A DNA stretch of 43,082 nucleotides from Candidatus Omnitrophota bacterium (GTDB lineage: Bacteria > Omnitrophota > Gorgyraeia > Gygaellales > Profunditerraquicolaceae). The stretch is taken from the NCBI GenBank assembly GCA_011620275.1, contig WOZK01000006.1, positions 1 to 43,082 of the forward strand, given 5' to 3'. This document shows positions 7,344-43,082 of this stretch, piece by piece (position 1 is the stretch's first letter; each line of letters starts with the position of its first letter). The notes under the pieces are model-generated. The model did not search any database, was not told the origin of the DNA, and saw only the letters and a list, made by a program, of their open reading frames with translations. The position numbers and the translations under genes were made by a program.

Positions 7344-7362
7344 GACAAATCAAGGAACGAAT

Positions 7363-10408: not shown

Positions 10409-10415
10409 ACGCGGC

Positions 10416-10564: not shown

Positions 10565-10581
10565 CCCACGCTCACGGTGTT

Positions 10582-11193
10582 ATGGCTAAGATAAAGCTTA
10601 CAAAAGGTGAACTGAAGAAGCAACGGGATGCGCTGCGGCAATACCAGCGCTATCTGCCCACACTGCAGTTGAAGAAGCAGCAGTTGCAGATGGAAATATT
10701 GAAATTTCTGGCGCTTATGGATCAGATCCGCGCACAGGAAGAAGAAAAGAAAACCGCCTGTCTCTTGTGGGCGGGGCTTCTGGCTACCTCTGGCATTGAT
10801 CTTGCGCTTTGGCTGAAGCCCTCGGCCGAGATCGTCGCATCCAGGAATATCGCCGGGGTTGAAGTGCGGCTGCTCGAGCGGCTGGATTTCGCAGCCGCAG
10901 AGTATGACCTTTTCACTATGCCCTTGTGGCTTGACCGCGGCCTGGAATTATTGCGCGAAGAGAAAAGTCTGCGTATGCAAATGCGCATGCTTGAGCGCGC
11001 GGTTGAGACGTTGCGCCATGAACTGCGGATAACCACGCAGCGGGTCAACTTGTTCGAGAAGGTGAAGATCCCGGAAGCCGAAGAGGCTATCCGGGTGATC
11101 AAGATATCCATCGGAGACCAGATGGCAAATGCCGTCGGCCGTAGCAAGGCAGCAAAGCGCAAGATCGAAGCGTTGAACGAGGTGCTGGTATGA
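10582..11193 (+). CDS. atpD: V/A-type ATPase subunit D (central rotor stalk)
   Basis: The 203-residue protein is almost wholly helical, with the N-terminal coiled coil (KIKLTKGELKKQRDALRQYQRYLPTLQLKKQQLQ read in two parts, residues 3-36) and a C-terminal helix ending RSKAAKRKIEALNEVLV, as in the rotor shaft subunit D. It links the head to the membrane ring. Its stop overlaps the next start as ATGA (11190-11193). It lacks strong sequence motifs, so the call rests on helical pattern, length and operon position. Confidence 0.88.
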   Translation: MAKIKLTKGELKKQRDALRQYQRYLPTLQLKKQQLQMEILKFLALMDQIRAQEEEKKTACLLWAGLLATSGIDLALWLKPSAEIVASRNIAGVEVRLLERLDFAAAEYDLFTMPLWLDRGLELLREEKSLRMQMRMLERAVETLRHELRITTQRVNLFEKVKIPEAEEAIRVIKISIGDQMANAVGRSKAAKRKIEALNEVLV

Positions 11194-27453: not shown

Positions 27454-28222
27454 TTCGTTGAAGCTGATCCGGGAGAACCGGGGAATATTGCGCAGTATCG
27501 CGCTTTCGCAGCTGCGCGCGAAATACACGGGGACGGCGCTGGGGGCTGCATGGGGCGTTTTGAATCCGATCGCGGTCACCCTGGCGATAATCTTCGCTTT
27601 TTCGGTGGTATTAAAGATCAATATGGAAAAGTTTCCTCTTTTCGTTCTCGCCGGGTTTTTCCCCTGGAACTTCTTTTCGTCTTCCGTGAGCGAAGCCTCG
27701 CGCTCTTTCCTGGAAAGGAAGGATATCCTAAGGCAACTGGATTTTCCGAGGGCGGTGGTGCCTCTTGCCTATGCCTTGGCCGGTTTCGCCGATTATCTCA
27801 GGGGATGGATATTCATTCTGCCGCTGTTCGCGGTATTCAATCCCCAGGTGCTATTTTTTCTTCCCTGGCTGCCGGTGATATTGTTACTGAACCTGTTTTT
27901 CGTCTGCGGGTTCTGCCTTTTGGTATCGGTGATGAACGTTTATTACCGTGACACAGCGCATCTGTTGAATCTCGGCCTTATGTTCTGGCTCTGGACTACT
28001 CCTATATTTTATACAGCGGATATGATCCCGGGCAGGTTTTACTGGATAATAGCGTTTAATCCGTTGGCGCAGTACCTGGAGGCTTACAGGGCCGTTCTTT
28101 TTTCGGCACGCGCCCCGTCCGCCGGCGTTCTCTGCGCGTGCTCGGCATGGGCCTGTTTCAGCGCCGTAGCCGGGATGACGGTTTTCCGCGGGATGGAAGA
28201 GGATATACTTAAACGGTTGTAG
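27446..28222 (+). CDS. ABC-2 type polysaccharide export permease (Wzm/TagG-like)
   Basis: The 258-residue membrane protein has the N-terminal LKLIRENRGILRSIALSQLRAKYTGTALGAAWGVLNPI segment (given in its family pattern, residues ~3-40), then six membrane helices including FPLFVLAGFFPWNFFSSSV and PVILLLNLFFVCGFCLLV. Such permeases flip finished lipid-linked glycans to the periplasm together with a Wzt-type ATPase. It overlaps the flavoprotein gene by 8 bases, and the ATPase gene follows after 44 bases. Confidence 0.9.
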   Translation: MRSSLKLIRENRGILRSIALSQLRAKYTGTALGAAWGVLNPIAVTLAIIFAFSVVLKINMEKFPLFVLAGFFPWNFFSSSVSEASRSFLERKDILRQLDFPRAVVPLAYALAGFADYLRGWIFILPLFAVFNPQVLFFLPWLPVILLLNLFFVCGFCLLVSVMNVYYRDTAHLLNLGLMFWLWTTPIFYTADMIPGRFYWIIAFNPLAQYLEAYRAVLFSARAPSAGVLCACSAWACFSAVAGMTVFRGMEEDILKRL

Positions 28223-28266: not shown

Positions 28267-30969
28267 ATGAGCATTATCAGGTTCAACGACGTCTGGGAGA
28301 TGTTCAGGATAAGGTTCTCCGGAGAAGGGCGCTCCTACTGGAAGAACTACTGGGCGCTGCGCGGGATAACTTTTTCCGTCTCCGAAGGGGAAGTCCTGGG
28401 TATCATGGGAGAGAACGGATCGGGTAAAACAACGATACTCAAACTTATCGGCGGGATCATCCGTCCGGACCGCGGAAGCGTGGAAGTGAAAGGGAAGGCC
28501 GCCGGGCTGCTGGAACTGGGAGCGGGATTCCAGCCTGAACTTACCGGAAGGGAGAATGTGCTCATCTGTTCCGGAATGCACGGTTATTCCGGAGAGGCCG
28601 CCGAAAGAAAACTTAAAGAGGTAGACGATTTCGCCCGTATCGGAGATTTTATTAATGCCCCGGTTAAGAACTATTCCCAGGGCATGTTCGTGCGACTCGC
28701 TTTTTCTTTTGCCGTCAGCCTGGAACCGGACATCCTCCTTATAGACGACAGTCTGGCAGTGGGCGACGGAGATTTCCAGAAAAGCTGTATCGACAAGATA
28801 ATGTCCTTGAAAGAATCAGGCCGCACGATAATCTTCGTCACCCACGATACCGGCCTGCTGAACAAGATAGCCACCCGGGCGCTGCTTTTAAAAAACGGCA
28901 GGTTAATGGAGGATTCGCAGCCGGAACGCGTCGGCGCCTTTTACGCCCTGGTTTGCGGCAGCCCGGAGGGGAAAGCCGCCCTGGAATCCGGCAGGCTGCG
29001 GATGGTGTTTAATAACGGGACATTATTCTTTTCCTGGGACGGAAGGCAGGTGACTTCCGAGAAAGGGATATTCGTGTATTTGCTCTGTGCCGGAGAATGG
29101 CTCTTGTCTCATTCGGGGCAATGGAGAATAACCGGCGGCGGCGGGGACAGGATAGAGGCGGAGGGGATTTTCCCGGACAAGGGGATCTCTTTGAAATGGA
29201 TCATAGAGCTCGCGGAGAACGGCGGCGTCCAGTGGGACATATACGCGTATTCCGAAAACGGCGCGCCTCTTGTGTCCGACTGCCGGATGGAATTTTGCTT
29301 CGACCGCGCCTACAACGAGTGGTTCACGAACCTTTCCCGAGGCAGATTGGGAGCGGTATCATCCGTCCAGGCAAGAGAAGCGTCCTCCGAAAGGATCCGT
29401 TATGCTGCGGTAAAGCCGGAGGAACGGGAAGAAGACCGGGGAGCCGCGCTTCCGGAGGTGGTGGTGGAGCCGCGCAGGGATAACGGGGATAGTGATGGAG
29501 TGGAGGTGCTGGACGGGGAAGACAATTTCGGCAGGATGATGCTGCGTAGCGCCCATCCGCCTTTGCCTTCGGCTCCGAAATGGCGTTCCGCGGCAGCGTA
29601 TTTCTCCGGAAGGATATTTTTCCGCCGGCAGGCCGTTCCGGTGCAGGCTGCCGCGGATGATAACGAAAAGGAACTGGTCTCCGGGGACAGCAGATTTATT
29701 TTTCGCAACGGCGAGTTGCTTATGATCAGCGCCGGCGTTCCTCTTACTTTTTCCCGGCATATATACGCGGAGATATACGGAGACAGGCGGATATACGATT
29801 CCCGCGAGGCCGGCTGGAAAGTCAGAAAGACGGGCCCGGATAGAATAGTGGCCTGCGGATTCTGGCCGGGAGCGGTATTCCGGCAGATTTGGGAAATACT
29901 GCTGTCCGCCGACGGGACGCTGCGGTTGAAGATATGGTTGGTGTGCCGGGCCGTTTCTTTATTCAGAAGGAGAAGACTGCAGGTAATGTGTTCGTCTTCC
30001 TATTCGTCGTATTTCAGCTGTTTCGGTTCCGGAGAGTTTCCCGCCAGATTCTGCACCGAGGAATACGACGTGCTGCAAAGATGTCTGCCCTGCGGCGACC
30101 TGGGAGTTTTAGACGCCAGCGGGAAACTTCCCACCCTCTCTCTCTCGTTTGAGGAAGAGGAGAATAATTTCGCGAAAATCATGAATTCCGACCTTTTCAA
30201 CCGCAGCCGCATATTGAGTGTGGAAAAAGTGGAGCCGGAGGAAAAACTGTTGTTTTCTCCCGGCAGGCACCACTGTTTTTCCGTTTCCATCAGGGCTTTT
30301 CCTCCCGGGACGGACCTCTCCGCGGGGGCGGTACTCCGTTCCGGTAAAGCCGGACTGCTTTTTTCCGGGGGAAGATTCGCGCTTATCCATGAAGGAAAAA
30401 CCTTGAGCGGCGATATAGGGTTGTATGTTTCTTTCCGTTCCGGAGGGCGGTGGCACGATTCGGTGTCCAAAGCGGTATGGAAACTGGATTCCTGCAAGGA
30501 AGGGGAATTGGCGTGTTCCGCGCAGTGGAGGCGGCTGCCCATAAAACAAACCTGGCGTATTTACGCGAAAGGCAAAGGGAGGTTCGCGATACGGGTAGTC
30601 TTGCTTGTGACCGGGGATACAGTGCTGGAAAGGCAGCAATTCAACCTGGCGCTCCGCGAGGTTTACAGTCTGTGGTCTCACCGTTCCCGCGGCGGCGTGT
30701 TCGGCGTGTTCCCGCGCGATACAGGAGACGACTGGCAGACTGTGGAGACGGTTCCCGCCGGCGCGCAGCCGTTAAGCGCCTCCTGCGCGGGGAACGGCCT
30801 GCCGGAAGTGGAGTTGTCCGTAGATGAAATAAGGGAAGGATGGAGGCTGGAAGCGGTTAATTCCGATCTCTGTTACCGTTCCAGAGTGCTGCGTTTGAGT
30901 AATGCAGGGGAGACAACGCTTTCTCCGGGAGAAAGCGTATTTTTTTCCGGAATGCTGACGGTAGGATGA
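28267..30969 (+). CDS. Wzt-like ABC ATPase with a ~660-residue triplicated C-terminal extension
   Basis: Residues 1-235 are a complete export ATPase: Walker A GENGSGKTT (Lys54), ELGAGFQPELTGREN, signature YSQGM (136-140), Walker B ILLIDD (Asp160-Asp161) and switch His193 (VTHD). The usual catalytic Glu after Walker B is Asp161. Residues 241-900 hold three related units starting at SG near 241, 472 and 692, each with ..F..G.L, a tryptophan pair, then IxAxG-like and QxWxI segments. The last two end with NSDL-x2-RSR-x-L and a SPG turn. In Wzt proteins the C-terminal beta domain binds the glycan cap; here it is far larger. The stop overlaps the next ATG. Confidence 0.87.
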   Translation: MSIIRFNDVWEMFRIRFSGEGRSYWKNYWALRGITFSVSEGEVLGIMGENGSGKTTILKLIGGIIRPDRGSVEVKGKAAGLLELGAGFQPELTGRENVLICSGMHGYSGEAAERKLKEVDDFARIGDFINAPVKNYSQGMFVRLAFSFAVSLEPDILLIDDSLAVGDGDFQKSCIDKIMSLKESGRTIIFVTHDTGLLNKIATRALLLKNGRLMEDSQPERVGAFYALVCGSPEGKAALESGRLRMVFNNGTLFFSWDGRQVTSEKGIFVYLLCAGEWLLSHSGQWRITGGGGDRIEAEGIFPDKGISLKWIIELAENGGVQWDIYAYSENGAPLVSDCRMEFCFDRAYNEWFTNLSRGRLGAVSSVQAREASSERIRYAAVKPEEREEDRGAALPEVVVEPRRDNGDSDGVEVLDGEDNFGRMMLRSAHPPLPSAPKWRSAAAYFSGRIFFRRQAVPVQAAADDNEKELVSGDSRFIFRNGELLMISAGVPLTFSRHIYAEIYGDRRIYDSREAGWKVRKTGPDRIVACGFWPGAVFRQIWEILLSADGTLRLKIWLVCRAVSLFRRRRLQVMCSSSYSSYFSCFGSGEFPARFCTEEYDVLQRCLPCGDLGVLDASGKLPTLSLSFEEEENNFAKIMNSDLFNRSRILSVEKVEPEEKLLFSPGRHHCFSVSIRAFPPGTDLSAGAVLRSGKAGLLFSGGRFALIHEGKTLSGDIGLYVSFRSGGRWHDSVSKAVWKLDSCKEGELACSAQWRRLPIKQTWRIYAKGKGRFAIRVVLLVTGDTVLERQQFNLALREVYSLWSHRSRGGVFGVFPRDTGDDWQTVETVPAGAQPLSASCAGNGLPEVELSVDEIREGWRLEAVNSDLCYRSRVLRLSNAGETTLSPGESVFFSGMLTVG

Positions 30970-33116
30970 TCACACCGGGTGAATACGGGATTGTTGGGCC
31001 ATTGAAAAGCGGCGGCATCCGCGCAGCCGGTAAACCGGCAAAAGGATTTCCTGCGTCCCGCGGACAAGCCGTTTATTTCGCCTTTTTGTTGTCTTTTTGC
31101 TGTTACGGCCAGGGACTTCAGGCGGCTGATTCTCCGGCGAAAGAATTTTATTCCGCGCGGTGGAGGATAGCGGCCGATTCAGGCTGGGCCGCGTCTTCCG
31201 GCGGGGAAGTAGAACTTTATAGCCGGACAAAGAGTTTTCCGGCCGAGCTTCGCTATTCATTTAAGAAAAACAATCTCTGGCAATGGCCGGAAATAACGTT
31301 TTCGCTGGACCTTCAGAAGGCGGGGGATTTAAGCGGATTTTCCTGGCTCAAAGTTAGGCTGCGTGGTCCGGCGAACGAAGAGATGTACATCGTTGTGACG
31401 GTCGAAGATAAGAAAACCGGGGCGTTGAAACCTTGTATATGCCGGATCCGCACGGCCGGCTACCCGGTGGATTACAAATTGCCTTTTTCGGCGTTTGTCG
31501 TCTCCCCGGACTGGACGGTGCGCAACCCCGGCTATTCACCGGATATAGAGTGGGAGAGAGTGCGTTCGATCGGGATGCATAAAAAGGGCAGAGACGGCGG
31601 CAAGGGTAGTATCTTTTGGGAACGCCTGGCGTTTTATAGAGGGGACTGTCCTTCGCCTTACGATATAGAAAAAGACAGAAGCGCTTCCCCGCGGCACTTC
31701 TCGGTTTCCCTGGAAAAACACGGAAGAAAAAACGTTTACTACGGCCGCGTGGAGATAATCCCCGCGAAAGGGGCAAGCAGGACGGTGAGCCGTTATTTAT
31801 ACGGAGCTAACCTTGCCAGCTGGCTGGATCTTCCTGAAGAGGAACAGGTCAGGCTTTTAAGCCCGGCGTTCCTGCGTCTGGGTGGGCCTTTCCTTGATCG
31901 TTATTCCTGGAGCAGCGGGATTTATACTTTCCCCGGGTCCGCGTTGAGGGTGAGGATGTTTTCACTGGACAGGTTCGTGCGGTTTTGCCGCGCCGTCGGA
32001 AGCGAACCGATGATACAGATAAATGCTTTGGGTTATCGCGGTGAATCCGGCGACGGCTTCAGTGTGGATAAAGAGGCCGCGGCGATGGTGCGATATTTGA
32101 ACGGCGATCCGGGCCGCGGCGTAAGGTTTTTCGAGATAGGGAACGAGCCGTTCATTTGGCACCTGACGCATCCCGACTTGCACCCGCAGCCTTGCTCTGC
32201 GGAGGAATATTCCGTCCGTTTCGAAAAGATAGCCGGGGCCATGCGCCGCGCTCAGAGTGAACTGCAAAACGGGCTGGATATCAAGATATTCGCGCCGGCG
32301 ATTTCCACAGCCTGGCAGGGATGGCGCGACTGCCTGGACGGAGAGGAGAACGCCGTAGAGAAATTCCTTACCGGGTGCGCTTCTTTAAAGGATGAAGCCG
32401 ACGGCAGACCTTTGCTGGACGTCTTGAGTTTTCATCTCTTCAATTCTTTTGCCGCTGACGGAGGACGGGAGGTTCAGCACGGCAACGCGGCCTTGCTCGA
32501 CGCTGCCGCCGTATGGTGGAAGAAAGACTACGTCAACAGTTATGACAAGGCGTTCGCCGCGGGGGATAAACCGGCGGTATTGCCGCGTTTCAGGAAGTGG
32601 ATCGCCGATTACGGGCCAGGACTGGATCTGGCGGTCACGGAGTTTAATATCGAGTCCGAATCGATGATAAATTACGATATGCTCTGGAAGGTACTGTATT
32701 TGAGCGACCTCTACGGTATTCTCGCGGAAGGAGGCGTTGATTACGCCGCACAATTCTGCCTGAATTCATCCGACCAGAACATAGCGATGCTGGACGATAC
32801 CGGAAAAAAAACCGCCTTGTATCATCCGTTCAGGCTGTATTCAAATTATTTTTCCGGGGTCTTGATGGACAAAAAAGTCGTCCCGCAGGACTGGGTGAGC
32901 GTATATGCTTCCCGTCAGGGCGGGAATTATACGCTAATGGCGATCAACAAAGCGAACGAAGCCAGAGATACGGAATTTCTGATCGGAACGGACAGCGGGG
33001 GCAGCGTGATCTTTAATCGCAGGCTGCCCGCTTTGAGTTTGAGCTGTATCAGGCTGAAAGGACCCGCTTATAAGGAAGCGGAAGTATGGGAATATGGCAG
33101 AGCACAGATCCATTGA
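30966..33116 (+). CDS. Secreted GH44-like TIM-barrel glycoside hydrolase
   Basis: The 716-residue protein has a long basic N-region, then a hydrophobic stretch (about 37-54) ending in LQAADS, read as a signal peptide; TTG 31002 would give a shorter one. Residues ~60-210 are a beta-sandwich like carbohydrate-binding modules. The catalytic barrel keeps RFFEIGNEPFIWHLTHPDLHP with the likely acid/base Glu394 and DLAVTEFNIES with the likely nucleophile Glu559, matching clan A and most like family GH44. GH44, GH39 and GH51 relatives cannot be fully separated by eye. It may trim the exported glycan. It overlaps the next gene by 23 bases. Confidence 0.8.
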   Translation: MITPGEYGIVGPLKSGGIRAAGKPAKGFPASRGQAVYFAFLLSFCCYGQGLQAADSPAKEFYSARWRIAADSGWAASSGGEVELYSRTKSFPAELRYSFKKNNLWQWPEITFSLDLQKAGDLSGFSWLKVRLRGPANEEMYIVVTVEDKKTGALKPCICRIRTAGYPVDYKLPFSAFVVSPDWTVRNPGYSPDIEWERVRSIGMHKKGRDGGKGSIFWERLAFYRGDCPSPYDIEKDRSASPRHFSVSLEKHGRKNVYYGRVEIIPAKGASRTVSRYLYGANLASWLDLPEEEQVRLLSPAFLRLGGPFLDRYSWSSGIYTFPGSALRVRMFSLDRFVRFCRAVGSEPMIQINALGYRGESGDGFSVDKEAAAMVRYLNGDPGRGVRFFEIGNEPFIWHLTHPDLHPQPCSAEEYSVRFEKIAGAMRRAQSELQNGLDIKIFAPAISTAWQGWRDCLDGEENAVEKFLTGCASLKDEADGRPLLDVLSFHLFNSFAADGGREVQHGNAALLDAAAVWWKKDYVNSYDKAFAAGDKPAVLPRFRKWIADYGPGLDLAVTEFNIESESMINYDMLWKVLYLSDLYGILAEGGVDYAAQFCLNSSDQNIAMLDDTGKKTALYHPFRLYSNYFSGVLMDKKVVPQDWVSVYASRQGGNYTLMAINKANEARDTEFLIGTDSGGSVIFNRRLPALSLSCIRLKGPAYKEAEVWEYGRAQIH

Positions 33117-34998
33117 TATATCGGTAGTGATCCCCACTTATAACCGTAAACGGCTGTTGGAAGAATGTCTTGATTCGCTGTTGTGCCAGGACCTTCCCGG
33201 CGGATCTTTCGAAATAGTAGTAGTGGACGACGGTTCCTCCGACGGTACCGGACTTTTTGCCGGCGGACCAGGAAATGCCCGGGGCAATATACGTTATATA
33301 AGACAGGAACGCCGCGGTCCGGCGGCGGCGAGGAATACCGGAGCGGCGCATTGCGGCGGACGGATAATCGCGTTCATAGACGATGATTGCCGCGCCTGCC
33401 CCGGGTGGCTGCGGGGCATTCTGGACGCGCACCGGCTGCATCCTTCTGCGGCGGCCGTAGGCGGATATACGCTGCCTGATCCGGAAGGCGGCATAGCGCA
33501 GGAGGTAAGCCAGTTCCTGAGCAACAGCAGCATTGAGATGGACTGCGGCAGAGGCAGGGAGCCGATATTTTTCCCTACCTGCAACGTCTCGCTTAAGCGA
33601 GAGATCTTTTCACGCTGTGAATTCGATCCTTCTTTCCCTTTCCCGGCGGGGGAAGATCTGGAGTTTTTCTGGAGGCTGCATAAACAGGGGGAGGGGTTGG
33701 TTTTTGACCCCAAAATCAGGGTTGTTCACCGCCGCCTCCCCGGTCCGGCGGCTTTCTGCAGGCAGGCTTATCTTTACGGCAGGGGGAATCTGCTGGTAAA
33801 GCGCCTTCACCGCGACCATGTGTTGCTGCAGGAGTTAAAGACCGGGCGGTTCGGTTTCTGGGCCGGCATGCTGGTAAATATGGCGAAGGTCCCCAGGTTC
33901 GCTTATTGCCTGTGCCGGTTCTTCGCGCGTTCCCAGGGGGCTTCTTACGGGCGGTTCAAAAAGGCAGGCGTGTTTTTCTTTTTCTGCCTGCATAAAATAG
34001 CGTATATTTTCGGTAATGTCGCGGAGTTCTGCAGCGGCCGCAGGCTTCCTTTTGCTGTTCCGCAGCTTTTAATACTGGACGTCACGCATAAATGCAATCT
34101 GCGTTGCCGTATATGCGATATCTGGAAAAATGCCGATCGGGAAAAAGATATCCCCGGCAGATACGTCCGCAAACTGTTGAAGGAAGCGGCATCTTCCGGC
34201 ATACAAGAAGTGGCTTTTTCCGGCGGAGAAGCCATGCTGCGCAGCGATATATTGGACCTTCTGGCATGCGCCCGCGGACTGGGTTTGAGGGGAGTGGGAT
34301 TGCTTTCCAACGGGATCGCCGTGCGGCGTGATTTCGGGAAGCTGGAGCCGTTTCTGAGGGACGGGACGGTTGTTCCCGTTCTGTCCTTGGATTCTCTGCG
34401 TCCGGAACTGCATAATTACGTGAGAGACGACGCGCGGGCCTGGGAGAATTCGGTCGAGGCGCTCAAGTCCCTGGCGGATTTAAGAAAAGAAGCCCTGGGA
34501 GTGAAATTCAGCTTGATCAGCATCGTTTTCGAGCGGAACCTTGAGGAGCTTGAAGATCTTTATGTGTTTGCGCGCGAGCTGGGCGTGTGTAATATCCAGT
34601 ACCAGCCGCTTTTGGCCAACAACCTGAAGATGTCGGAGAGAAAAAACGCGGAGTTATGGGTGAAGCCCGGGAGTTTCGGCAGACTGGAACGCGCAGTCGA
34701 AAGGCTCATTGCGCGCGGGCGTTCGGACGGCGGGTTCCTGCGTAATTCGGAAGGCAATCTCAGGCTGTTCAAAAAATATTTTGCCGGTGAGTTGGCGCCC
34801 GGGGACTGCGTTTGTTCATCCGCCGGCAGGACCGTTCTGGTCGCCAACGACGGGTACTGCCGCACCTGTTTTTCCGCTTACGGAGATATCCGCAGGCAAA
34901 GCCTGGCGGATATACTTTCAGGACCGCGGATCAATGAGGCCAGGGAACGCGTGCGTAAATGTCCATGGCCGTGCCTGCTTCCTTGTTTTTGCGATTAA
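33094..34998 (+). CDS. GT2 glycosyltransferase fused to a radical SAM domain
   Basis: Residues ~8-310 are a GT2 family domain: SVVIPTYNRKRLLEECLDS, VVVDDGSSDGT, RRGPAAARNTG, the metal-binding FIDDDC (Asp96-98) and PAGEDLEFFWRL. After a basic and hydrophobic linker, residues ~325-634 form a radical SAM domain with Cys334-x3-Cys338-x2-Cys341 (CNLRCRIC) and VAFSGGEAML. The C terminus has further cysteines: GDCVC, YCRTCFSAYGDIR and KCPWPCLLPCFC, like a SPASM or twitch auxiliary-cluster region. Both domains look intact. The upstream overlap with the GH44-like gene places it at the end of the exporter transcript. Confidence 0.88.
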   Translation: MAEHRSIDISVVIPTYNRKRLLEECLDSLLCQDLPGGSFEIVVVDDGSSDGTGLFAGGPGNARGNIRYIRQERRGPAAARNTGAAHCGGRIIAFIDDDCRACPGWLRGILDAHRLHPSAAAVGGYTLPDPEGGIAQEVSQFLSNSSIEMDCGRGREPIFFPTCNVSLKREIFSRCEFDPSFPFPAGEDLEFFWRLHKQGEGLVFDPKIRVVHRRLPGPAAFCRQAYLYGRGNLLVKRLHRDHVLLQELKTGRFGFWAGMLVNMAKVPRFAYCLCRFFARSQGASYGRFKKAGVFFFFCLHKIAYIFGNVAEFCSGRRLPFAVPQLLILDVTHKCNLRCRICDIWKNADREKDIPGRYVRKLLKEAASSGIQEVAFSGGEAMLRSDILDLLACARGLGLRGVGLLSNGIAVRRDFGKLEPFLRDGTVVPVLSLDSLRPELHNYVRDDARAWENSVEALKSLADLRKEALGVKFSLISIVFERNLEELEDLYVFARELGVCNIQYQPLLANNLKMSERKNAELWVKPGSFGRLERAVERLIARGRSDGGFLRNSEGNLRLFKKYFAGELAPGDCVCSSAGRTVLVANDGYCRTCFSAYGDIRRQSLADILSGPRINEARERVRKCPWPCLLPCFCD

Positions 34999-35012
34999 GC
35001 GCTTCCGGAGAG

Positions 35013-35040
35013 TTGACAAACTCCGACGGCAGCGGATAAT
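35013..35040 (+). promoter_or_regulatory. Sigma70-like promoter before the radical SAM array
   Basis: TTGACA (35013-35018), a 16-base spacer, then GATAAT (35035-35040), five of six matches to TATAAT. Transcription would start near 35047, about 25 bases before ATG 35071. The TTGACA also lies in an imperfect CGGAG/CTCCG hairpin, which might serve as a terminator remnant for the upstream gene. Confidence 0.65.
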
Positions 35041-35070
35041 GTTACAGAGAACTTATTAAGGAGAGCAGAA

Positions 35071-35154
35071 ATGTCCGACACCCTACCGGCTCGACTGCCT
35101 CGAGTGAGACGATACCAGAGGTGTCAAACATTTTTGCTCCGAGTAATACTATGA
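35071..35154 (+). CDS. Candidate 27-residue leader ORF coupled to the B12 radical SAM gene
   Basis: ATG 35071 lies seven bases after AAGGAG (35058-35063) and close to the predicted transcription start. The frame runs 27 codons and stops at TGA 35152-35154, overlapping ATG 35151 of the next gene. The peptide is very basic (six Arg, one Cys) with a hydrophobic end (FLLRVIL). Against a functional peptide, four of its six arginines are CGA, unlike neighbouring genes. It may be a translated leader, a peptide substrate, or fortuitous. Confidence 0.4.
   Translation: MSDTLPARLPRVRRYQRCQTFLLRVIL
35077..35135 (+). promoter_or_regulatory. Possible attenuator hairpin in the array leader
   Basis: GACACC (35077-35082) pairs with GGTGTC (35120-35125), enclosing a CTCGA/TCGAG hairpin (35090-35104). 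Five T residues follow at 35131-35135. It overlaps the 27-codon frame, so ribosome movement could change folding. The outer stem is short and the loop long. Confidence 0.35.
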
Positions 35155-36515
35155 GAATAGCATTGGTCATGCCGCCGCTTTACGGCGTGGATATGCCTCC
35201 TTTGGGTATTGCTTACGTGGCGGGGCGCCTGATGCAGGACGGGCATGAAGTCCGTATGTTCTGTCTGAATTCGGAGCTTTTCCATCTTAATCCGGACAAA
35301 CGGTATCTCTGGGATTGGGATAGTGCAGACGAATGGCGGTCCCTGGAAAGAGTGGGCGCGCATTTCGATCTACCGGCGCTTTTGCGGGAATGGACCGGCA
35401 GGATATCGTGTTTTTCACCGGGTATGGTGGGATTCAGCGTGAACAGCCATTCGCTGCCGCTGGCCGGGGCGCTCGCGGGTAGTATCCGCGCGGCCATAGA
35501 AGATATCCCTTTGATTTTCGGCGGGCCGATGTGCTCCGAAAGCGATATCTCAAGGGAAACGTGTCCCTGCGTCGACATATACGTGCGCGGAGAGGGAGAA
35601 GAGACCGTGTCCGCGATCGCGGCAGCCGTTGAGTCCGGGGTAGATTTACGAACCCTGCGTCTTCCCGGAACGGTGGTGAATACCGTTTCCGGGCTGCGGG
35701 ATAACGGACCGTCCGAAATGATCGGCGATATAGATTGCATCCCGTTCCCGGCGCTGGAATTGTTCGATCTGGAAAGGTATACAAATAAAGAAGAGATCCC
35801 GATACTTTTTTCCCGCGGATGCGATTTCGCCTGCCGGTTTTGCACCGATAAGCCGATGTGGGGAAAATACCGTATGAGGGCCCCGGAGAACATCTTTGCG
35901 GAGATGAAGAAACGGTATTCCTTCTGCGGCAGAAAAAAGTTTAAGTGTAACGATTTGATGGTCAACGGGTTACCGGCTGCGCTCGACAGGTTGAGTTCGC
36001 TGATAGCTTCTTCCGGCAGCGGTTTCTCCTGGGGAGGTATGGCCAGGGCTTCGGAAAAAATGACGCGCCGGCAGGCGGAAAGGTGGAGAGCCGGCGGGTG
36101 CAGTTATCTTACTTACGGGGTGGAGAGCGGTTCACAAGCGGTATTGACGGATATGGGGAAGCCTTCGAAGAAGGCCTTGTTCTTTTCCTTCTCGGCGGCG
36201 CACGAGGCCGGGATTAAGGTCAATACACTCTGGATGGTCGGATATCCGAGTGAGAGATGGAGGGACTTTTTTCATACCCTCTTCTTTTTACTGCGCCAGC
36301 GCGGTAATATAGACGAGTTCGTCAGCGTGAGCTGCTGTTATATACCGAGGCTTTCCTGGCTGGGAAGGCACACCCGGGAATTGGGGATTAATTGTGGTCA
36401 AGGGGGCAACTGGTATAACAGCAAAGGTAATAACGCGGCATTGCGCCGCCTGCGCAGAAAACTCCTGCTTATTTACGCCCGCTTGATCGGGATCTACAAG
36501 GGAGGGATATCTTAA
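35151..36515 (+). CDS. B12-binding-type radical SAM protein
   Basis: The 454-residue protein begins MRIALVMPPLYGVDMPPLGIAYVAGRLMQDGHEV, typical of the cobalamin-binding domain of class B radical SAM enzymes (residues ~1-150, quoted in part as residues 1-34). LIFGGP and VRGEGEETV follow. The radical SAM core has Cys224-x3-Cys228-x2-Cys231 (CDFACRFC), then MARASEKMT and the TYGVESGSQAVL block. ATG 35151 is preferred; GTG 35121 would add ten residues. Such enzymes do methyl transfer or ring and carbon-skeleton chemistry on unactivated carbons. The substrate is unknown. Confidence 0.86.
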   Translation: MRIALVMPPLYGVDMPPLGIAYVAGRLMQDGHEVRMFCLNSELFHLNPDKRYLWDWDSADEWRSLERVGAHFDLPALLREWTGRISCFSPGMVGFSVNSHSLPLAGALAGSIRAAIEDIPLIFGGPMCSESDISRETCPCVDIYVRGEGEETVSAIAAAVESGVDLRTLRLPGTVVNTVSGLRDNGPSEMIGDIDCIPFPALELFDLERYTNKEEIPILFSRGCDFACRFCTDKPMWGKYRMRAPENIFAEMKKRYSFCGRKKFKCNDLMVNGLPAALDRLSSLIASSGSGFSWGGMARASEKMTRRQAERWRAGGCSYLTYGVESGSQAVLTDMGKPSKKALFFSFSAAHEAGIKVNTLWMVGYPSERWRDFFHTLFFLLRQRGNIDEFVSVSCCYIPRLSWLGRHTRELGINCGQGGNWYNSKGNNAALRRLRRKLLLIYARLIGIYKGGIS

Positions 36516-36523
36516 GGAAAGAG

Positions 36524-37585
36524 ATGCGTAAATTCACCAATCTACTCCGGCTTGCCGGATTCTGGCTTTCCCGGCGCGTCAATTATCCGTTCGTTCCTCC
36601 TCAGACGGTGCAGTTCTCGTTGACTTCACGCTGTAACCTGCGCTGCAAAATGTGCAGTATCTCCGGAAGGCAGCCGGAGGAGGAAGAGCTTTCCACTTCT
36701 TGTGTAAAGGGGCTGATCGAACAGGCGGCGGCATGGGGAGTTAATGAAGTCCTGTTCACGGGAGGAGAGCCTTTCCTGCGCGGCGATATTTACGAGCTGT
36801 GTTCTTGCGCCGCCGGGAACCGTATGAGAAGTATCATAACCACAAACGGCACGCTTCTGGACCGGGACGCCTGCCGCAGGCTTGCCGCCTGCGGCGTCGG
36901 GCACGTGCATTTCTCCTTGGACGGACTGGAAAGGACGCATGATTTTCTCCGCGGCAAAGGAACGTTCGCGTCCGCGGTCAAGGCGTTCGGGCTCCTGCAG
37001 GATGAGCGGGCGCGAGGCGCGGCCTTTTCCCTCGGCGCGGCCTTCACGGTAATGGATATTAATGCCGGAGAACTTTGCGATTTTGTCCGATTTTGCGCGG
37101 GACTGCGGGTGGACGTGGTCAATTTTCAGCCGTTTACTCCCGATAACGGCGATTTCAGCGTTGATGATCCCGGCTTGCGTTTCTGGCCGGGTCCGGAAAA
37201 GATAGCGTTGTTGAAAGAGCAGATCGAGGAACTCGAGAGGATGGCGCCGGGCAGACCGGCGATTCTTCAGGAACCTTCGATGCGTCTTCTTCCCGAATAT
37301 TATGCCGGCACCCTCGGGCCGCGCGACTGGACCTGTTTCGGGGGCTTCAAGACGGCATTTATTTGTTATTCGAAAAAGGCTCCGTTGCTTTATACCTGCC
37401 ACGGTATTTGCGGCGGGCTGGATAAAATGAAACTGCCGGAGGCATGGAAGTCTCCCGAGGCATACCGACTGCGGCTGCACTCCCGCTCCTGCGCCAAGCC
37501 TTGCCTGCAAAGCTGCTATTCTTTTTCTGCCGCGTCCAGCCTCGGGGCGATCATGAAAAAATGCCTGAAAGGGAGCTGCGCATGA
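36524..37585 (+). CDS. Radical SAM protein 1 of the tandem set (SPASM-like C terminus)
   Basis: The 353-residue protein has Cys37-x3-Cys41-x2-Cys44 (CNLRCKMC), EVLFTGGEPFLR for S-adenosylmethionine binding, ITTNGTLLD and FSLDGLERTHDFLRG. The C-terminal half carries TCFGGFKT, a YTCHGICGG segment and CAKPCLQSC near residue 330, a likely auxiliary iron-sulfur site. AAGGAAAGAG precedes ATG 36524. Its stop overlaps the next gene as ATGA. It is clearly related to the following three proteins, pointing to tandem duplication and divergence. Confidence 0.88.
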   Translation: MRKFTNLLRLAGFWLSRRVNYPFVPPQTVQFSLTSRCNLRCKMCSISGRQPEEEELSTSCVKGLIEQAAAWGVNEVLFTGGEPFLRGDIYELCSCAAGNRMRSIITTNGTLLDRDACRRLAACGVGHVHFSLDGLERTHDFLRGKGTFASAVKAFGLLQDERARGAAFSLGAAFTVMDINAGELCDFVRFCAGLRVDVVNFQPFTPDNGDFSVDDPGLRFWPGPEKIALLKEQIEELERMAPGRPAILQEPSMRLLPEYYAGTLGPRDWTCFGGFKTAFICYSKKAPLLYTCHGICGGLDKMKLPEAWKSPEAYRLRLHSRSCAKPCLQSCYSFSAASSLGAIMKKCLKGSCA

Positions 37586-38832
37586 GCGAAAACCGGTATT
37601 CCGTTCGTTTTGAGGAATTATTCGGTTTCTACGCGGGCAGGGAAACCGGCGTCCCCCTTGTGCCGCCGGAACACGTTTATTTTTCCTTGACCAACAGGTG
37701 CAATTTGAAATGCAGGATGTGTTCCGTCTCCGGGGGAGGGGACGGCGAGATGGAGACCGGGGAGGTGTGCGCGATAATCAGGCAGGTTAAAGAACTCGGG
37801 GTGCGGCATCTGATATTATCCGGAGGAGAAGCCTTGCTGCGCCGTGACCTTAAGGAAATAGTGTCTTTTTCAGTCGCCAGCGGCATAGAGATGGTGGATA
37901 TTATCACTAACGGCACGCTCCTGAATGAAGAGACGGCCGACTTCTTCGTGAAAGAGGGGTTGAATCATTTGACGGTATCCCTTGACGGGTTGAGGAAGAA
38001 TAACGATTATATACGCGGTGAAGGGGTATTCGATAGAGCTGAAGCGGCCATGGATATCCTCAACCGTGTTAAAAAGACGCACAGCAGACGCAATCCCACT
38101 CTCGGGATAAACTTCACGGTAATGGACAGGAACGTGGAGGATATGCTTCCCATACTCGATTTTGCCGGCGGCAAGGAGTGTAATATCGTGGTTTTTCAGC
38201 CGGTGCTCTTCGACAACGTGAAAATGCACGTGAAACAGAAGAGTCCGCTATGGCCGTGCGGGGAGAAACTTCGTTTGCTGGAGGAGAACCTGAAGAGGCT
38301 GCAGGAACTAAAAAGTGATCCGCGGCATACCCCCATGATTTATACTTCCGATCAGGTATTGTCTCTCATGCCGGCATACTTCCAAGGAAGGATGCCCGCC
38401 GGCAGGATCGGCTGTTACGAGGGGTTAAAGAGGATGGTTATAACTTCCGGCGGCCAGGTCTGGAGCTGTCTGGGCATATACGGAGACGCGCGCAGGGAAA
38501 AATTGGCTGATATCTGGGTTTCGGCTTCGGCGCGCCGCGTAAGGGAAAAAGCCAGGCGTTGCCGCAGGCATTGTCTGCAGGATTGCGTTTATTTTCCTTC
38601 CTCGGTGGCGGCGGAGGCGCTTAAAGTAGTCGCCGGCGCGCCGGAAGAAGAAAAGGCGCTTGCCGCGGCCTCGCTGGAATCCGGACTGAAAAAGACCGGC
38701 GCGGCGCTTGCCGCGGCCGGCGCCGGCTTCATCGGGAAAATACGCGGCAGGAACGCGCTCGATGCGCTTAAGGCGAAGATCCGGTCTGCTGATGGGCGCG
38801 ACGGAGGGCGGAAGAGGGGGGCATGCGGATAG
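37582..38832 (+). CDS. Radical SAM protein 2 of the tandem set, with Ala-rich tail
   Basis: The 416-residue protein starts at ATG 37582 (after GGGAG); the frame open from 37444 covers the previous gene. It has Cys40-x3-Cys44-x2-Cys47 (CNLKCRMC), LILSGGEALLRRDL, ITNGTLLNEE and VSLDGLRKNNDYIRGEG. The C-terminal cluster reads GCYEGLK, WSCLGIYGDARR and RCRRHCLQDC. A long Ala/Glu/Lys-rich tail (about 345-416, with a hydrophobic AGAGFIG stretch) is absent from its neighbours and may bind a partner or the membrane. Confidence 0.88.
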   Translation: MSENRYSVRFEELFGFYAGRETGVPLVPPEHVYFSLTNRCNLKCRMCSVSGGGDGEMETGEVCAIIRQVKELGVRHLILSGGEALLRRDLKEIVSFSVASGIEMVDIITNGTLLNEETADFFVKEGLNHLTVSLDGLRKNNDYIRGEGVFDRAEAAMDILNRVKKTHSRRNPTLGINFTVMDRNVEDMLPILDFAGGKECNIVVFQPVLFDNVKMHVKQKSPLWPCGEKLRLLEENLKRLQELKSDPRHTPMIYTSDQVLSLMPAYFQGRMPAGRIGCYEGLKRMVITSGGQVWSCLGIYGDARREKLADIWVSASARRVREKARRCRRHCLQDCVYFPSSVAAEALKVVAGAPEEEKALAAASLESGLKKTGAALAAAGAGFIGKIRGRNALDALKAKIRSADGRDGGRKRGACG

Positions 38833-39998
38833 AAGGGGATTGCGTAAAAGAATTCAAGCGGGACCTGGCGTATCATTTTTCCGAGGAGATGAATCATCCT
38901 TTTGCCAGGCCGAAATGGGTCTATATAAGTCTCAGCCATAAATGTACCTATTCCTGTAAAATGTGTGGAGTGGTAAATATTCTTAAAGGGCACGAACTCT
39001 CGGGGGAGACCGTTGTTTGCGCGCTTGAGGAAATAGCCTCCTGGGACTGGGACAGCACGGTCGTTCTGACCGGGGGCGAGCCGTTCCTGCGTCGTGACAT
39101 TTTTGATATCATCGGCCGCGCCGTATCGGCCGGAGTGCGCACGGAGGCGGTCTCCAACGGTTCTCTTATCGACGAAGCAATGGCCGAGCGTATCGTCTCC
39201 AGCGGTTTAAAGAACATCGCAGTTTCGCTGGACGGGGCGCTTCCGGAAACACACGATTATTTCCGCGGTAAAGGCGCTTTCGACGCCGCCTTGCGCGCGG
39301 TGAGAAATCTGGCCGCGGCAAAAAAAAGGTTCGGCCGCGGTCCGCAGATATCGGTCTGGAGCACGATTATGAAAGAAAATATTCCGGAACTGTCCCGCAT
39401 GCCGGCCCTGGCTGTTTCCGAGGGCGCGGAATGTTTCGTTATGCATCCGGTGATCGTGGCGCAGGACGATATGCAGAACACCTCCGGCAGCGCGCCTTTC
39501 TGGCCGGGAGAAAAGGAGATAGGTATCCTGCGCGAACAGATAAAATTGATTACCGCTCCCGGAGGCGGTTGCGGGGTCACCGCTTTCCTGCATGACCCCG
39601 CCCTTTGGGCGGATTATTTCTCCGGACGGCTGGAGAGACGGCAGTGGAAGTGCAATCCTTTCGTTTTCATAAATATCGGTCCGGATGGAGAGATCAGGAG
39701 CTGCGGGGAGTCTTTCGGCAATATAAAAGACGCGGGCATAACGGCCGCTCTTTTTACCAGGGAGGCGTCGGAGGCAAGGGAGAAGATGAAGAAATGCCGC
39801 AAGCCCTGCCTGCAGACGTGCTGGGCGCATCCCGATGCCGACACCATTTCAGTGCTTACCGAAAAAATTATAGTGTCTTCACGTAACATCCCCGGCCGCG
39901 CGGTATTGCTGCGCGAGTGCCTTGCGGAATTGAAAGAATACAAGACTATCCTGAAGGGTAAGCCGGTATACACAAGAGGAGATAAATGTTCCAGATGA
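38823..39998 (+). CDS. Radical SAM protein 3 of the tandem set
   Basis: The 391-residue protein has Cys41-x3-Cys45-x2-Cys48 (CTYSCKMC), VVLTGGEPFLRRDI, VSNGSLID and VSLDGALPETHDYFRGKG. C-terminal cysteines are in WKCNPFV, RSCGESFGNIKD and KCRKPCLQTC. It keeps SPASM-like layout but has CTYSC in place of CNLxC. It overlaps the gene before it by 10 bases and the one after by 13 bases, so this is one translational unit. Confidence 0.87.
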   Translation: MRIEGDCVKEFKRDLAYHFSEEMNHPFARPKWVYISLSHKCTYSCKMCGVVNILKGHELSGETVVCALEEIASWDWDSTVVLTGGEPFLRRDIFDIIGRAVSAGVRTEAVSNGSLIDEAMAERIVSSGLKNIAVSLDGALPETHDYFRGKGAFDAALRAVRNLAAAKKRFGRGPQISVWSTIMKENIPELSRMPALAVSEGAECFVMHPVIVAQDDMQNTSGSAPFWPGEKEIGILREQIKLITAPGGGCGVTAFLHDPALWADYFSGRLERRQWKCNPFVFINIGPDGEIRSCGESFGNIKDAGITAALFTREASEAREKMKKCRKPCLQTCWAHPDADTISVLTEKIIVSSRNIPGRAVLLRECLAELKEYKTILKGKPVYTRGDKCSR

Positions 39999-41173
39999 AA
40001 GAGATCATATTTTCCCTGACCTCCAGGTGCAATTTGAAGTGCGTCATGTGCGATATCCCGGCTTCCCGCAGCAGAGAATTGCCTACCGGCGTTCTTTTTG
40101 CCGCGCTGGAAGACGCCGCGGCTTTAGGCGCTTCCACGGCCGTATTCAGCGGCGGAGAACCTCTGCTGCGGACGGACATTTACGATCTGGCGGAGTTCTC
40201 CAGGGATCTGGGAATGAGCGCTTGCCTTACCTCAAACGGCTGTCTTATCGACGAGGAGACCGCCGGAAGGATCGCCGACAGCGGGGTGGGCGTGGTGAAT
40301 ATTTCCCTTGAAGGGGATAGACAGGTGCATGAAAGACTTCGCGGCCCCGGGTCTTACGAGAAGGCATTGCGGGCGTTGCGCCTGCTGCGGGCCAGGGGTG
40401 TGGAGACGACTATCGCCTCTACGGTCTCAAGATATAATTATTCCTCTCTGGAACATATAGTGGAACTGGCCGGGGAAACAGGAGCGACCACGCTCAAGTT
40501 TCAGCCTTTCAGCAGAATATTCGTTTCTCCGGGCAGGAATTGCAGCGAATTCCTCCTTGGGGAAGTGGAGGCCGGCATCGCTATGGAAACCCTGCGCGGC
40601 ATACATAAGCTTTGCGGAGAGCGCGGTATATCGGTCAATCCTTTGCCGTATTTGGAACGCATCCCCGCGTATCTTTCCAGAGGGATCGGCGGCAACGCGG
40701 CCAGTTGCCGGGCGCTTTTTTCTTCCTGCCCGGTGGACGCCTCCGGTAAGGTCTTTCCCTGCTGGGTATTGTCCGGCAAGGATATGTTGATAGGAGATAT
40801 ATCTCGAACACCTTTGAGGGAAATATGGGGTAATGTCAGGCACCGCGATATCATCAGCCGTATCAACAGCCGCAGCTGCGGGGGGTGCCTGATGAGTTGT
40901 TACGACGCGAACTTCAGCCGTTCCGTTGCCGGACCGTCGGCCGGATTCTTCGGGCAGGCGGTCTCTCCGGTGCGCGGGGCGGCGCTGCGGAAACTGAAGA
41001 GGAAAATAATGTTCTACGCCGCTTATCGGGGGTCTCTCCGGAGTTTGCTGCGTCGTCTTTTGCCGTCACCGCCCCGCCGTGCCTCGGCGGAGCGGTCAAT
41101 CCCGGAAAGAAAGATCGCCGAGATCGAAAAAGCGGAGGAGATGATCAAGAAGGAATTAAAGCGTTCGAAATGA
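39986..41173 (+). CDS. Radical SAM protein 4 of the tandem set, basic C-terminal tail
   Basis: The 395-residue protein lacks the N-terminal extension of its neighbours; the cluster motif is Cys15-x3-Cys19-x2-Cys22 (CNLKCVMC). AVFSGGEPLLRTDI, LTSNGCLIDEE and ISLEGDRQVHERLRG follow. The auxiliary region has SCRALFSSCPVDASGKVFPCW and SCGGCLMSC. The last ~70 residues are rich in Arg and Lys with a short hydrophobic stretch, perhaps membrane-associating. AGGAGATAA precedes ATG 39986. The stop overlaps the GT2 start as ATGA. Confidence 0.87.
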   Translation: MFQMKEIIFSLTSRCNLKCVMCDIPASRSRELPTGVLFAALEDAAALGASTAVFSGGEPLLRTDIYDLAEFSRDLGMSACLTSNGCLIDEETAGRIADSGVGVVNISLEGDRQVHERLRGPGSYEKALRALRLLRARGVETTIASTVSRYNYSSLEHIVELAGETGATTLKFQPFSRIFVSPGRNCSEFLLGEVEAGIAMETLRGIHKLCGERGISVNPLPYLERIPAYLSRGIGGNAASCRALFSSCPVDASGKVFPCWVLSGKDMLIGDISRTPLREIWGNVRHRDIISRINSRSCGGCLMSCYDANFSRSVAGPSAGFFGQAVSPVRGAALRKLKRKIMFYAAYRGSLRSLLRRLLPSPPRRASAERSIPERKIAEIEKAEEMIKKELKRSK

Positions 41174-42426
41174 AGATATCCTGTTACGTTCCCCTGTATA
41201 ATAATGCCGATACGATAGCCTATTGTCTGGATTCGCTGCTGAGGCAGTCTTTGGCTCCAGAAGAGATCCTGGTAGTGGACGACGCCTCTTCAGATCAAAG
41301 CCCGCAGATCGCGGCGCGGTATCCGGTGAGATTGATCAGACATCCCGGCAATCGGGGACTGGCAGCGGCCAGGAACACTGCCCTTAAAAACATAAGCGGA
41401 GAATTTGTCGCTTCCATAGATGCCGATTGCACGGCAGATCCCGGATGGCTTGAGTCTCTCGCCGGCGCGCTGTCATCTTCGCCGCGCGCGGCCGGGGCCG
41501 GCGGGCGGGTCATGGAAACCCAGGCTTCTTCGGTTTTCGACCTGTGGCGGGCCGCGCATATGCGCCAGTTCTGGCAGGAAAACGAAACAAACCCGGTTTT
41601 TCTTTTCGGGGCCAATACTCTTTTCCGCTCCGACAACCTGCGGATGATAGGCCTGTACGACGAATCTCTCGGGAACAACGCCGAGGATGTGGATATCTGC
41701 TGCAGGCTGAAAGTCTCGGGAAGCGGCCTGGTCTATTGTCATAACGCCGTAGTGTATCATCAAAAAAAAGACAGCCGGAGGTCGTTGTTCAACAGCCACT
41801 GGAACTGGCACATGTCATATTACGAGAAAACAGGGTGGTTCCGGAATGATTTCAGCGCCAAGATAAAGGAAAACCTTGGGATGGCCAATCGTTATCTCGA
41901 GGAAGACATCGCCGCCGGCCGGCATCAATTGTTATATCTGGATTTCCTGCTCGGGATGTTTTATTTTTTTAAAGACTTTCTTTATATTAAGGGCAGTTAT
42001 ATTAATCCTTCCCCTGCGGTATTATGGGCCGCATTGGCCGATCTGAGACTGAATGAAGCATTTTCCCGCGGGAACAACCGGGTTTTCCGTTTCGATTGCG
42101 GGGAAGCCGGATACGCCGCCGACTTCCTGGCAGCAGCTTTGTCGATCGGAGGAGAGATCAAGCGTAAATTTCCGAATAAAAATTTCCTGGCACGCATATA
42201 CGGCAATCTGCTGGAAGCCGTCTACGGCATAGAAGACAGGCAATTGTCAGGAATGATGGAGGCGCTCTCGTCCATCAACTGGGACTGGTTGACAGACGGT
42301 AATTATCCCCTCTCGGGAGAGGCGCTGCTGCCCGCCTTTAAGGAGGGGTTGTCTTCCTGGCTGGATATCCTGGTTACCAGGTCCGGAGATACCCCGACTT
42401 GGATAGAATTGGCTTCCAGAGAATAG
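41170..42426 (+). CDS. GT2-family glycosyltransferase closing the radical SAM array
   Basis: The 418-residue protein begins ISCYVPLYNNADTIAYCLDSLLRQ, has LVVDDASSDQS, RGLAAARNTALKN, the DxD site IDADC (Asp84-Asp86) and a late NNAEDVDICCRL acceptor block. A C-terminal helical part of about 190 residues has no match I recognise. ATG 41170 was chosen since the frame from 40885 runs through the previous gene. With the GT2-radical SAM fusion at the other end, the array starts and ends with GT2 domains. Confidence 0.87.
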   Translation: MKISCYVPLYNNADTIAYCLDSLLRQSLAPEEILVVDDASSDQSPQIAARYPVRLIRHPGNRGLAAARNTALKNISGEFVASIDADCTADPGWLESLAGALSSSPRAAGAGGRVMETQASSVFDLWRAAHMRQFWQENETNPVFLFGANTLFRSDNLRMIGLYDESLGNNAEDVDICCRLKVSGSGLVYCHNAVVYHQKKDSRRSLFNSHWNWHMSYYEKTGWFRNDFSAKIKENLGMANRYLEEDIAAGRHQLLYLDFLLGMFYFFKDFLYIKGSYINPSPAVLWAALADLRLNEAFSRGNNRVFRFDCGEAGYAADFLAAALSIGGEIKRKFPNKNFLARIYGNLLEAVYGIEDRQLSGMMEALSSINWDWLTDGNYPLSGEALLPAFKEGLSSWLDILVTRSGDTPTWIELASRE

Positions 42427-42502
42427 GCGTCCAGATATTGAGGGAAGAGATACTGCTTTTTGTAACGCAGCTTCAGAGTTTACCGTATTGAAAGGAGACA
42501 AG

Positions 42503-43082
42503 ATGTCGAGAAAGAAGATTCCGGTTGCAAGGATCCTGATATTTTTTTCCTGGGCCGTCCCGTTGCTTACGGCCGCCGCCGCGTCCGCGGTTTTATTCCT
42601 GCAGGATAAACCGTTGTTCATCTCGGGGATATTTTTACTGCTGGCGGCAAGTTTGATTCCTGCTGTTTTACTGCGCATGTGCGCCAATCTCACGCAGATG
42701 GTCTTCGAGATGCAGAATATCCTGCAGTATACTTACAAAGAGCACTCGCAGGCGCTTTCTTCGCTTGCGGCAAACGTGCAAAGTATGCGCAAGGAGGACA
42801 TTGCTGTCTTGATAAGGGAGATAAACGCGCGGCTGCTTGCCGGGAGTTCCGAGGCGGCCGAGGGAGTTTCGGAGATGACAGGGCTCCTTTCCAGGATAGC
42901 GGAAGGACTAGACTCCTTGCCGGGCAAGATAGGGCCGCACCACGAAGAAGATATGCTTATGATCATGAGAGAGCTGAACGCGAGGATCCTTTCCGGGAAT
43001 GTGGAGATCGTAGAGGCTGTAAGCGCTTTGCCGGGCAAGATAGGGCCGCACCACGAAGAAGATATGCTTATGATCATGAGAG
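42503..43082 (+). CDS. Two-TM protein with 37-residue tandem repeats (3' end outside window)
   Basis: AAAGGAGA precedes ATG 42503. The visible 193 residues hold two membrane helices (about 11-33 and 38-58), then a helical region with repeats. EDIAVLIREINARLLAG (98-114) and EDMLMIMRELNARILSG (149-165) align, and LPGKIGPHHEEDMLMIMR occurs twice, 37 residues apart. The frame is open at the window end, so the gene is partial and more repeats may follow. No family is recognised. A structural or scaffold role at the membrane is possible. Confidence 0.82.
   Translation, partial: MSRKKIPVARILIFFSWAVPLLTAAAASAVLFLQDKPLFISGIFLLLAASLIPAVLLRMCANLTQMVFEMQNILQYTYKEHSQALSSLAANVQSMRKEDIAVLIREINARLLAGSSEAAEGVSEMTGLLSRIAEGLDSLPGKIGPHHEEDMLMIMRELNARILSGNVEIVEAVSALPGKIGPHHEEDMLMIMR
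42917..43082 (+). repeat. 111-bp direct repeat in the last gene
   Basis: The 55 bases at 42917-42971 recur exactly at 43028-43082, the window edge. The period is 111 bases (37 codons), so the reading frame is kept. Exact DNA identity, not just protein identity, points to recent expansion or exchange. The array may continue beyond the window. Confidence 0.9.

Follow-up and report, generated by a model that had tools for sequence, protein, structure and literature searches.

Radical SAM arrays beside Wzm/Wzt-type exporters in Omnitrophota suggest a candidate system of surface-glycan tailoring

What could a single bacterial locus do with six radical SAM proteins encoded in a row, between glycosyltransferases and downstream of an ABC exporter? 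The question is raised by a 43,082-nucleotide stretch of a Candidatus Omnitrophota genome (the window: assembly GCA_011620275.1, contig WOZK01000006.1, positions 1 to 43,082, in our numbering C18:1-43082), in which the genes that we letter F, K, A, B, C, D and G form an array at 33094-42426, with H and K2 beyond it. The source is a metagenome-assembled genome of 1.48 Mb on 36 contigs, 92.5% complete, whose nearest named relative is Candidatus Omnitrophica UBA5776 (shared genes are 91 to 95% identical). We find that the window locus is an F-type variety of a broader class of loci, recurring across Omnitrophota, in which a Wzm/Wzt exporter stands with a radical SAM array. It is probably an ABC-exporter-dependent surface-glycan locus, whose tailoring would be carried out mostly by radical SAM enzymes on a lipid-linked glycan docked at the exporter.

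Pfam domain calls, made gene by gene, bear out the composition given in an initial annotation of this DNA: one fusion of a GT2 glycosyltransferase to a radical SAM domain (F), one B12-type protein (K) and four paralogues (A to D, with Radical_SAM E-values from 6e-20 to 3e-25). The genes are closely packed, as had been noticed, with gaps of -13 to +8 nt from 35121 to 42426. The F-K gap is 122 nt, and the larger gaps of the locus measure 44, 61 and 122 nt, while the other gene ends mostly overlap. The more likely starts of B and G are 37582 and 41170. GT2 domains do bracket the six proteins, in F and in G, but the array is not ended at 42426, since H, K2 and a further GT2 gene lie beyond. The upstream initiator, exporter and hydrolase that had been described are likewise present (Table 1). 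The GH44-like hydrolase gene is an accessory to some loci, because it also stands beside F in genome G125.

Five of the six proteins had been credited with a shared terminal Cys cluster, and we find it, as C-x2/3-C-[LM]-x2-C, in F and in all four paralogues A to D, with K lacking it. Pfam places SPASM at or over its cut-off in F, B and D, under it in C, and does not report it in A; the cluster is kept in all of A to D whatever the SPASM score. Orthologues keep the motif; 89 of 118 related domains carry it, compared with 0.5% of shuffles. It is an ordinary SPASM-type Cys cluster, and thus real, although not special in itself. Because the CxxxCxxC and GGE motifs are intact in F and A to D and the GT2 acidic residues of F are invariant, these proteins look like live enzymes. 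An invariant Cys of B, just before 'NIVVFQP', was considered as an epimerase-type hydrogen donor and rejected; it lies at a strand start, probably outside the active site.

The set travels together across genomes. Among 285 Omnitrophota genomes, which served as our comparison sample throughout, F is found in 15 and C in 12, and all 12 genomes with C are within the 15 with F (chance 1e-18; our co-occurrence p values ignore ancestry). The three genomes with F alone are either accounted for or not informative: the contig ends 1.9 kb past F in G125 and begins within F in G227, and C is split into two open reading frames (ORFs) in G147. F itself is a single ORF in nearly all relatives; in G240, its GT2 and radical SAM parts are two adjoining ORFs. 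Cluster comparison across families reveals a conserved order and a shared exporter, and every A, B, C or F locus with enough contig adjoins Wzm/Wzt. The common plan begins with GT4, WecA, FAD-dependent oxidoreductase, Wzm, Wzt and F and ends with C, D, G, H, K2 and GT2; between these lies a variable middle. In the window, L032 and G198, this middle contains K, A and B alongside other radical SAM families, whereas G278, G267, G155, G251 and G133 have B12 types there together with a different radical SAM family. Wzt has been relocated in G155, with the remaining set still together. Occurrence outside Omnitrophota was probed by a pattern-based scan with B, which returned eight loci, seven of them from Omnitrophica/Omnitrophota and one labelled 'bacterium'.

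In the largest F-type locus that we read (G198:C5:60001-100000; L059, L060), a 40-kb stretch encodes 18 proteins with 19 CxxxCxxC motifs between them; an asparagine-synthase-like protein and a TPR protein follow downstream. GDSL-lipase proteins, mostly with TPR repeats, also lie in or beside arrays (L069 12063-15064, L035 517-3116 and L034 372-1817), where an acyl-transfer or esterase step is possible.

Loci of this kind are not confined to genomes with F. Genomes without it (G051, G094, G081 and others) have parallel loci with Wzm and/or Wzt and a K2-like protein, the largest carrying ten or more radical SAM/SPASM genes, and in G166 A and B belong to a second locus, which has a Wzm/Wzt of its own. 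K2 is present in 55 of the 285 genomes. We read 20 K2 loci out to about 10 kb per side; a permease or ATPase is visible in 16, and two more have the exporter's beta domain only. The remaining two are masked just upstream (G142) or lie on a contig that ends about 1.9 kb upstream (G126). Array genes of this kind standing apart from the glycosyltransferases and exporter in relatives, which would have spoken against a common system, were thus not what we saw, and no NCBIfam family exceeded its own cut-off among the array proteins. Two parallel loci (G051:C7:160001-218000, L098, L090 and L091; G094:C2:1-40000, L092 and L093) encode Wzm-Wzt, one fusion of the beta domain to a radical SAM enzyme and another that involves K2, along with a row of at least ten radical SAM/SPASM genes.

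The strongest new evidence is a beta domain common to the exporter and to radical SAM enzymes. The C-terminal ~650 residues of Wzt are three homologous repeats of ~220 amino acids (hhalign probability 99.9 to 100). Pfam gave no match for the single repeats or the ATPase extension, nor did a PDB sequence search with the extension as query. Repeat profiles match 23 radical SAM-containing proteins in 17 genomes, at 35 to 128 bits per repeat. The domain occurs in 57 genomes and K2 in 55, with both in 51 (log10 p = -44, again ignoring ancestry). In G217, a single 1902-aa ORF just after Wzm (L104 = G217:C27:30001-50000, 7066-12774) runs from an ABC ATPase (Walker A at 52) through two repeats, K2 and a further repeat to radical SAM/SPASM. 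The AlphaFold model of the extension is all-beta (predicted local distance difference test, 80; predicted template modelling score, 0.48), and the leading PDB matches by Foldseek include 1,2-beta-oligoglucan phosphorylase, beta-galactosidases, a galactosaminidase and MdoD, in a list that also has unrelated beta proteins at low probability. By this model, the extension may have a sandwich fold of the glycoside-enzyme type and may bind glycan.

A FastTree phylogeny of 106 radical SAM sequences places A, B, C and D each on one branch (support 99 to 100), which puts the divergence of the paralogues earlier than the spread of the locus; F, including lower-identity members, is also one branch (99). 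Further recurring radical SAM families (X1 to X6) occupy the variable middle. Families f1, f20 and f36 are intermingled in each of the two main F clades, a pattern consistent with horizontal transfer or with ancient duplication and subsequent loss.

Two other regions of the window's own genome are rich in radical SAM genes. The end of contig C15 (L040 11704-17497) carries an array of X1, X3 and X6 relatives, including one 731-aa protein with two radical SAM domains; it directly follows primase and sigma-70 genes and is cut by the contig end. Because these relatives lie there, part of the set may be encoded elsewhere, or a second locus may exist. Contig C9 (1-35000; L041, L042) has about nine B12-type radical SAM proteins, together with UbiA, two sugar epimerase-family proteins, a DegT aminotransferase, a PMT-type glycosyltransferase, U32 peptidases, an LptD-like protein and a UDP-glucose dehydrogenase.

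At the right end of the locus, H (42488-43082; L039:489-1398) has two membrane segments and a coiled coil of variable length, which in this genome is made of tandem units, with a run of Ns in the assembly. Its relatives range from 112 to 274 aa and share the C-terminus ..CDxxDMNxNIxQIxxFFExIExHLDxKK. Several contigs end inside H, perhaps because of repeats. H could be a polymer length ruler or a tether.

Table 1. Genes and domains of the F-type locus (window positions unless marked as contig positions)
Feature	Position	Strand	Basis
GT4 glycosyltransferase, left flank of locus	24037..25206	+	Pfam; syntenic in several F-type loci
WecA-like (PF00953) polyprenyl-phosphate sugar-1-phosphate transferase, presumed initiator	25190..26158	+	Pfam; syntenic in G278, G267, G155, G133, G125
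FAD-dependent oxidoreductase, amine-oxidase family	26116..27453	+	Pfam; syntenic relatives
ABC-2 permease, Wzm-like	27446..28222	+	Pfam; relatives 37-42% identical, adjoining Wzt in other loci
ABC ATPase, Wzt-like, 900 aa, C-terminal extension of three homologous beta domains	28267..30969	+	Pfam (ATPase); model, Foldseek, repeat homology
Beta domains of Wzt extension	~28969-29655, ~29656-30309, ~30310-30966	+	Repeats homologous
GH44-like glycoside hydrolase	30966..33116	+	Domain scans; adjoins F in G125 too
F: GT2 glycosyltransferase fused to radical SAM/SPASM	33094..34998	+	GT2 PF00535 2e-31, Radical_SAM 3e-17, SPASM 3e-4
K: B12-binding radical SAM protein	35121..36515	+	Pfam; orthologues L032, L035 at 48-51%
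A: radical SAM, SPASM-type Cys cluster, variable middle	36524..37585	+	Pfam, tree
B: radical SAM/SPASM, variable middle	37582..38832	+	Pfam, tree
C: radical SAM/SPASM-like, constant right flank	38823..39998	+	Pfam, tree
D: radical SAM/SPASM, constant right flank	39986..41173	+	Pfam, tree
G: GT2 glycosyltransferase, constant right flank	41170..42426	+	Pfam GT2 9e-32
H: membrane segments and variable coiled coil, conserved C-terminus	42488..43082, on through N-run to ~contig 43397	+	Relatives
K2: second B12 radical SAM protein, outside window	contig 43394-44752		Domain scans
Last GT2, outside window, then contig end	contig 44724-45596		Domain scans

How might these genes work together? The WecA-like enzyme would load a first sugar on a polyprenyl carrier, and the GT4 enzyme, the GT2 half of F, G and the last GT2 would lengthen the chain. 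The beta domains of Wzt would hold the chain, and there F, A to D, K and K2 would carry out radical reactions on its sugars, such as dehydrogenation, decarboxylation, ring contraction or C-methylation. Wzm/Wzt would then export the altered product. The initial annotation had suggested, from the divergence of the four paralogues, successive steps on one scaffold, and this is plausible. We propose more tentatively that the radical SAM enzymes are tethered to the exporter ATPase by the shared, putatively glycan-binding domain and in some species by direct fusion, so that the lipid-linked glycan is rebuilt stepwise while held.

Support for a glycan comes from the glycosyltransferases, WecA and Wzm/Wzt lying in one gene run and from the Foldseek matches of the extension, which are largely carbohydrate enzymes. 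Gene content, linkage, constant ends around a swappable middle and, in relatives, radical SAM enzymes fused to the exporter's domain are all direct observations. Radical SAM chemistry on sugars is known from a few small-molecule pathways, usually with one or two enzymes. The nearest curated family of K2 is HpnJ (TIGR03471), matched over most of its length at 234 bits (265 for the G278 relative; the cut-off of 577.6 is not reached), with AprD4 also among its curated matches. The sugar that HpnJ modifies is one that a GT2 enzyme has attached. The nearest PDB relative of C by profile is BlsE, a cytosylglucuronate decarboxylase. The closeness of K2 to HpnJ and of C to BlsE, together with the GT2-radical SAM fusion F, provides leads for sugar chemistry.

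Other points weigh against a glycan-tailoring locus. SPASM domains are present in 28 of 29 relatives, and radical SAM/SPASM genes are abundant phylum-wide. Some loci have far more radical SAM enzymes than glycosyltransferases, which is odd for a short repeat unit. TM-scores for the three-domain Foldseek query are low, so we take those matches as a lead only. By profile, A and D have the peptide enzyme SkfB as their nearest PDB relative, and SkfB also tops the Foldseek list for C. The glycan substrate, the binding by the beta domain, each individual reaction and the order of steps are what we infer. Note that the fold of C was rejected as a discriminator between sugar and peptide substrates, as SkfB, DesII and BlsE score near level.

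These points bear on what else the array could be. SPASM radical SAM enzymes often act on peptides, and the SkfB relationships of A, C and D would suit a system for a ribosomally synthesized and post-translationally modified peptide (RiPP), or a glycopeptide, in which SPASM proteins modify a small ribosomal peptide, glycosyltransferases glycosylate it and the ABC transporter exports it. We consider this unlikely. No ORF of at least 20 aa lies wholly inside the two gaps tested, a search that leaves distant precursors outside it; Pfam scans returned no domain of the RiPP recognition element (RRE) type, and RiPP-maturase models score far under their cut-offs. The initiator is WecA-type and the exporter Wzm/Wzt-type, rather than a peptide exporter. 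The RiPP reading has no positive support, and of the originally proposed glycan- or glycopeptide-modifying system we retain the glycan half, which is backed by two observations: the set travels with the exporter across families, and relatives have radical SAM enzymes fused to the exporter's C-terminal domain. A protein substrate is harder still to credit: SPASM enzymes include protein maturases, such as sulfatase maturases, and the beta-domain fusion could serve protein contact, so that amino acids of the exporter, the beta domain or an envelope protein would be modified instead of a glycan. However, a single protein would then need this large number of diverged enzymes, and the GT2 fusion in F and the HpnJ and BlsE leads point to sugars.

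Just as improbable is a pathway for a lipid or cofactor, whether hopanoid-like, tetrapyrrole-like or of another kind, in which the use of an ABC exporter would be incidental. The best NCBIfam names do come from such pathways (the B12 types draw HpnJ and BchE, and several SPASM types AhbC/AhbD/NirJ), but the scores are far under cut-off (AhbD 121 versus 500 bits; HpnJ 234 versus 578), and the locus has WecA, GT4 and GT2 in place of lipid or tetrapyrrole genes. We rejected the cofactor and heme names for A to D (AhbD, NirJ and tungsten maturase) as generic. Finally, radical SAM genes, with 43 Radical_SAM matches in the 1.48 Mb of this genome and SPASM so widespread among relatives, might simply pile up in polysaccharide regions and share no pathway. 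Supported orthologue groups that keep their order, the overlap of gene ends and fusions that recur from family to family make this very improbable.

A surface-glycan locus tailored by radical SAM enzymes would be of broad significance. Our findings suggest that Omnitrophota with such loci build heavily modified surface sugars. If so, a large hidden surface-glycan chemistry exists in an uncultured, widespread phylum, in about one-fifth of the sampled genomes (55 of 285 by K2), and exchange of the radical SAM cassettes that lie between the constant ends would vary the surface polymer phylum-wide. The beta domain common to exporter and enzymes offers a testable handle on enzyme substrates; were it shown to hold the radical SAM substrate, the label of a new class would be deserved.

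We found no described system of this kind in the open-access literature, where absence is weak evidence. The word 'radical' is absent from the main Omnitrophota survey (PMC10066038). In the Cariaco Basin, radical SAM proteins and glycosyltransferases are common tailoring genes in biosynthetic clusters, and Omnitrophota are among the phyla expressing clusters (PMC9902471).

Among known systems, SPASM peptide maturases such as SkfB share the domain plan and the Cys cluster, whereas neither a precursor peptide nor an RRE was found here. BlsE, DesII and AprD4 are alike in fold and Cys-cluster type; in those systems, one or two enzymes act on a soluble metabolite, without an exporter or polymer. 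In hopanoid synthesis, HpnJ acts after the glycosyltransferase HpnI and the deacetylase HpnK, forming a cyclitol ether from the attached glucosamine (PMC12583986). The likeness there is a glycosyltransferase followed by a radical SAM enzyme on one attached sugar, with K2 nearest HpnJ, but the K2 types score 234 to 265 bits against 578, and our locus has many more radical SAM enzymes and no hopanoid genes. We place the locus as a variant of ABC-dependent glycan export loci, because its initiator and exporter are of known kind: permease and ATPase lie side by side, with a polyprenyl-phosphate initiator (PF00953) and GT4/GT2 enzymes in the same locus. Like the Wzm/Wzt and TagGH loci for O-antigen, teichoic acid and capsule, it combines a WecA-like initiator, GT4/GT2 enzymes, an ABC-2 permease and an ATPase extended at its C-terminus, with constant ends around a variable middle. 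In those loci, however, the middle is made of nucleotide-sugar genes, whereas here it is made of radical SAM genes, and the ATPase extension consists of three copies of a domain without a Pfam match that is fused to radical SAM enzymes elsewhere.

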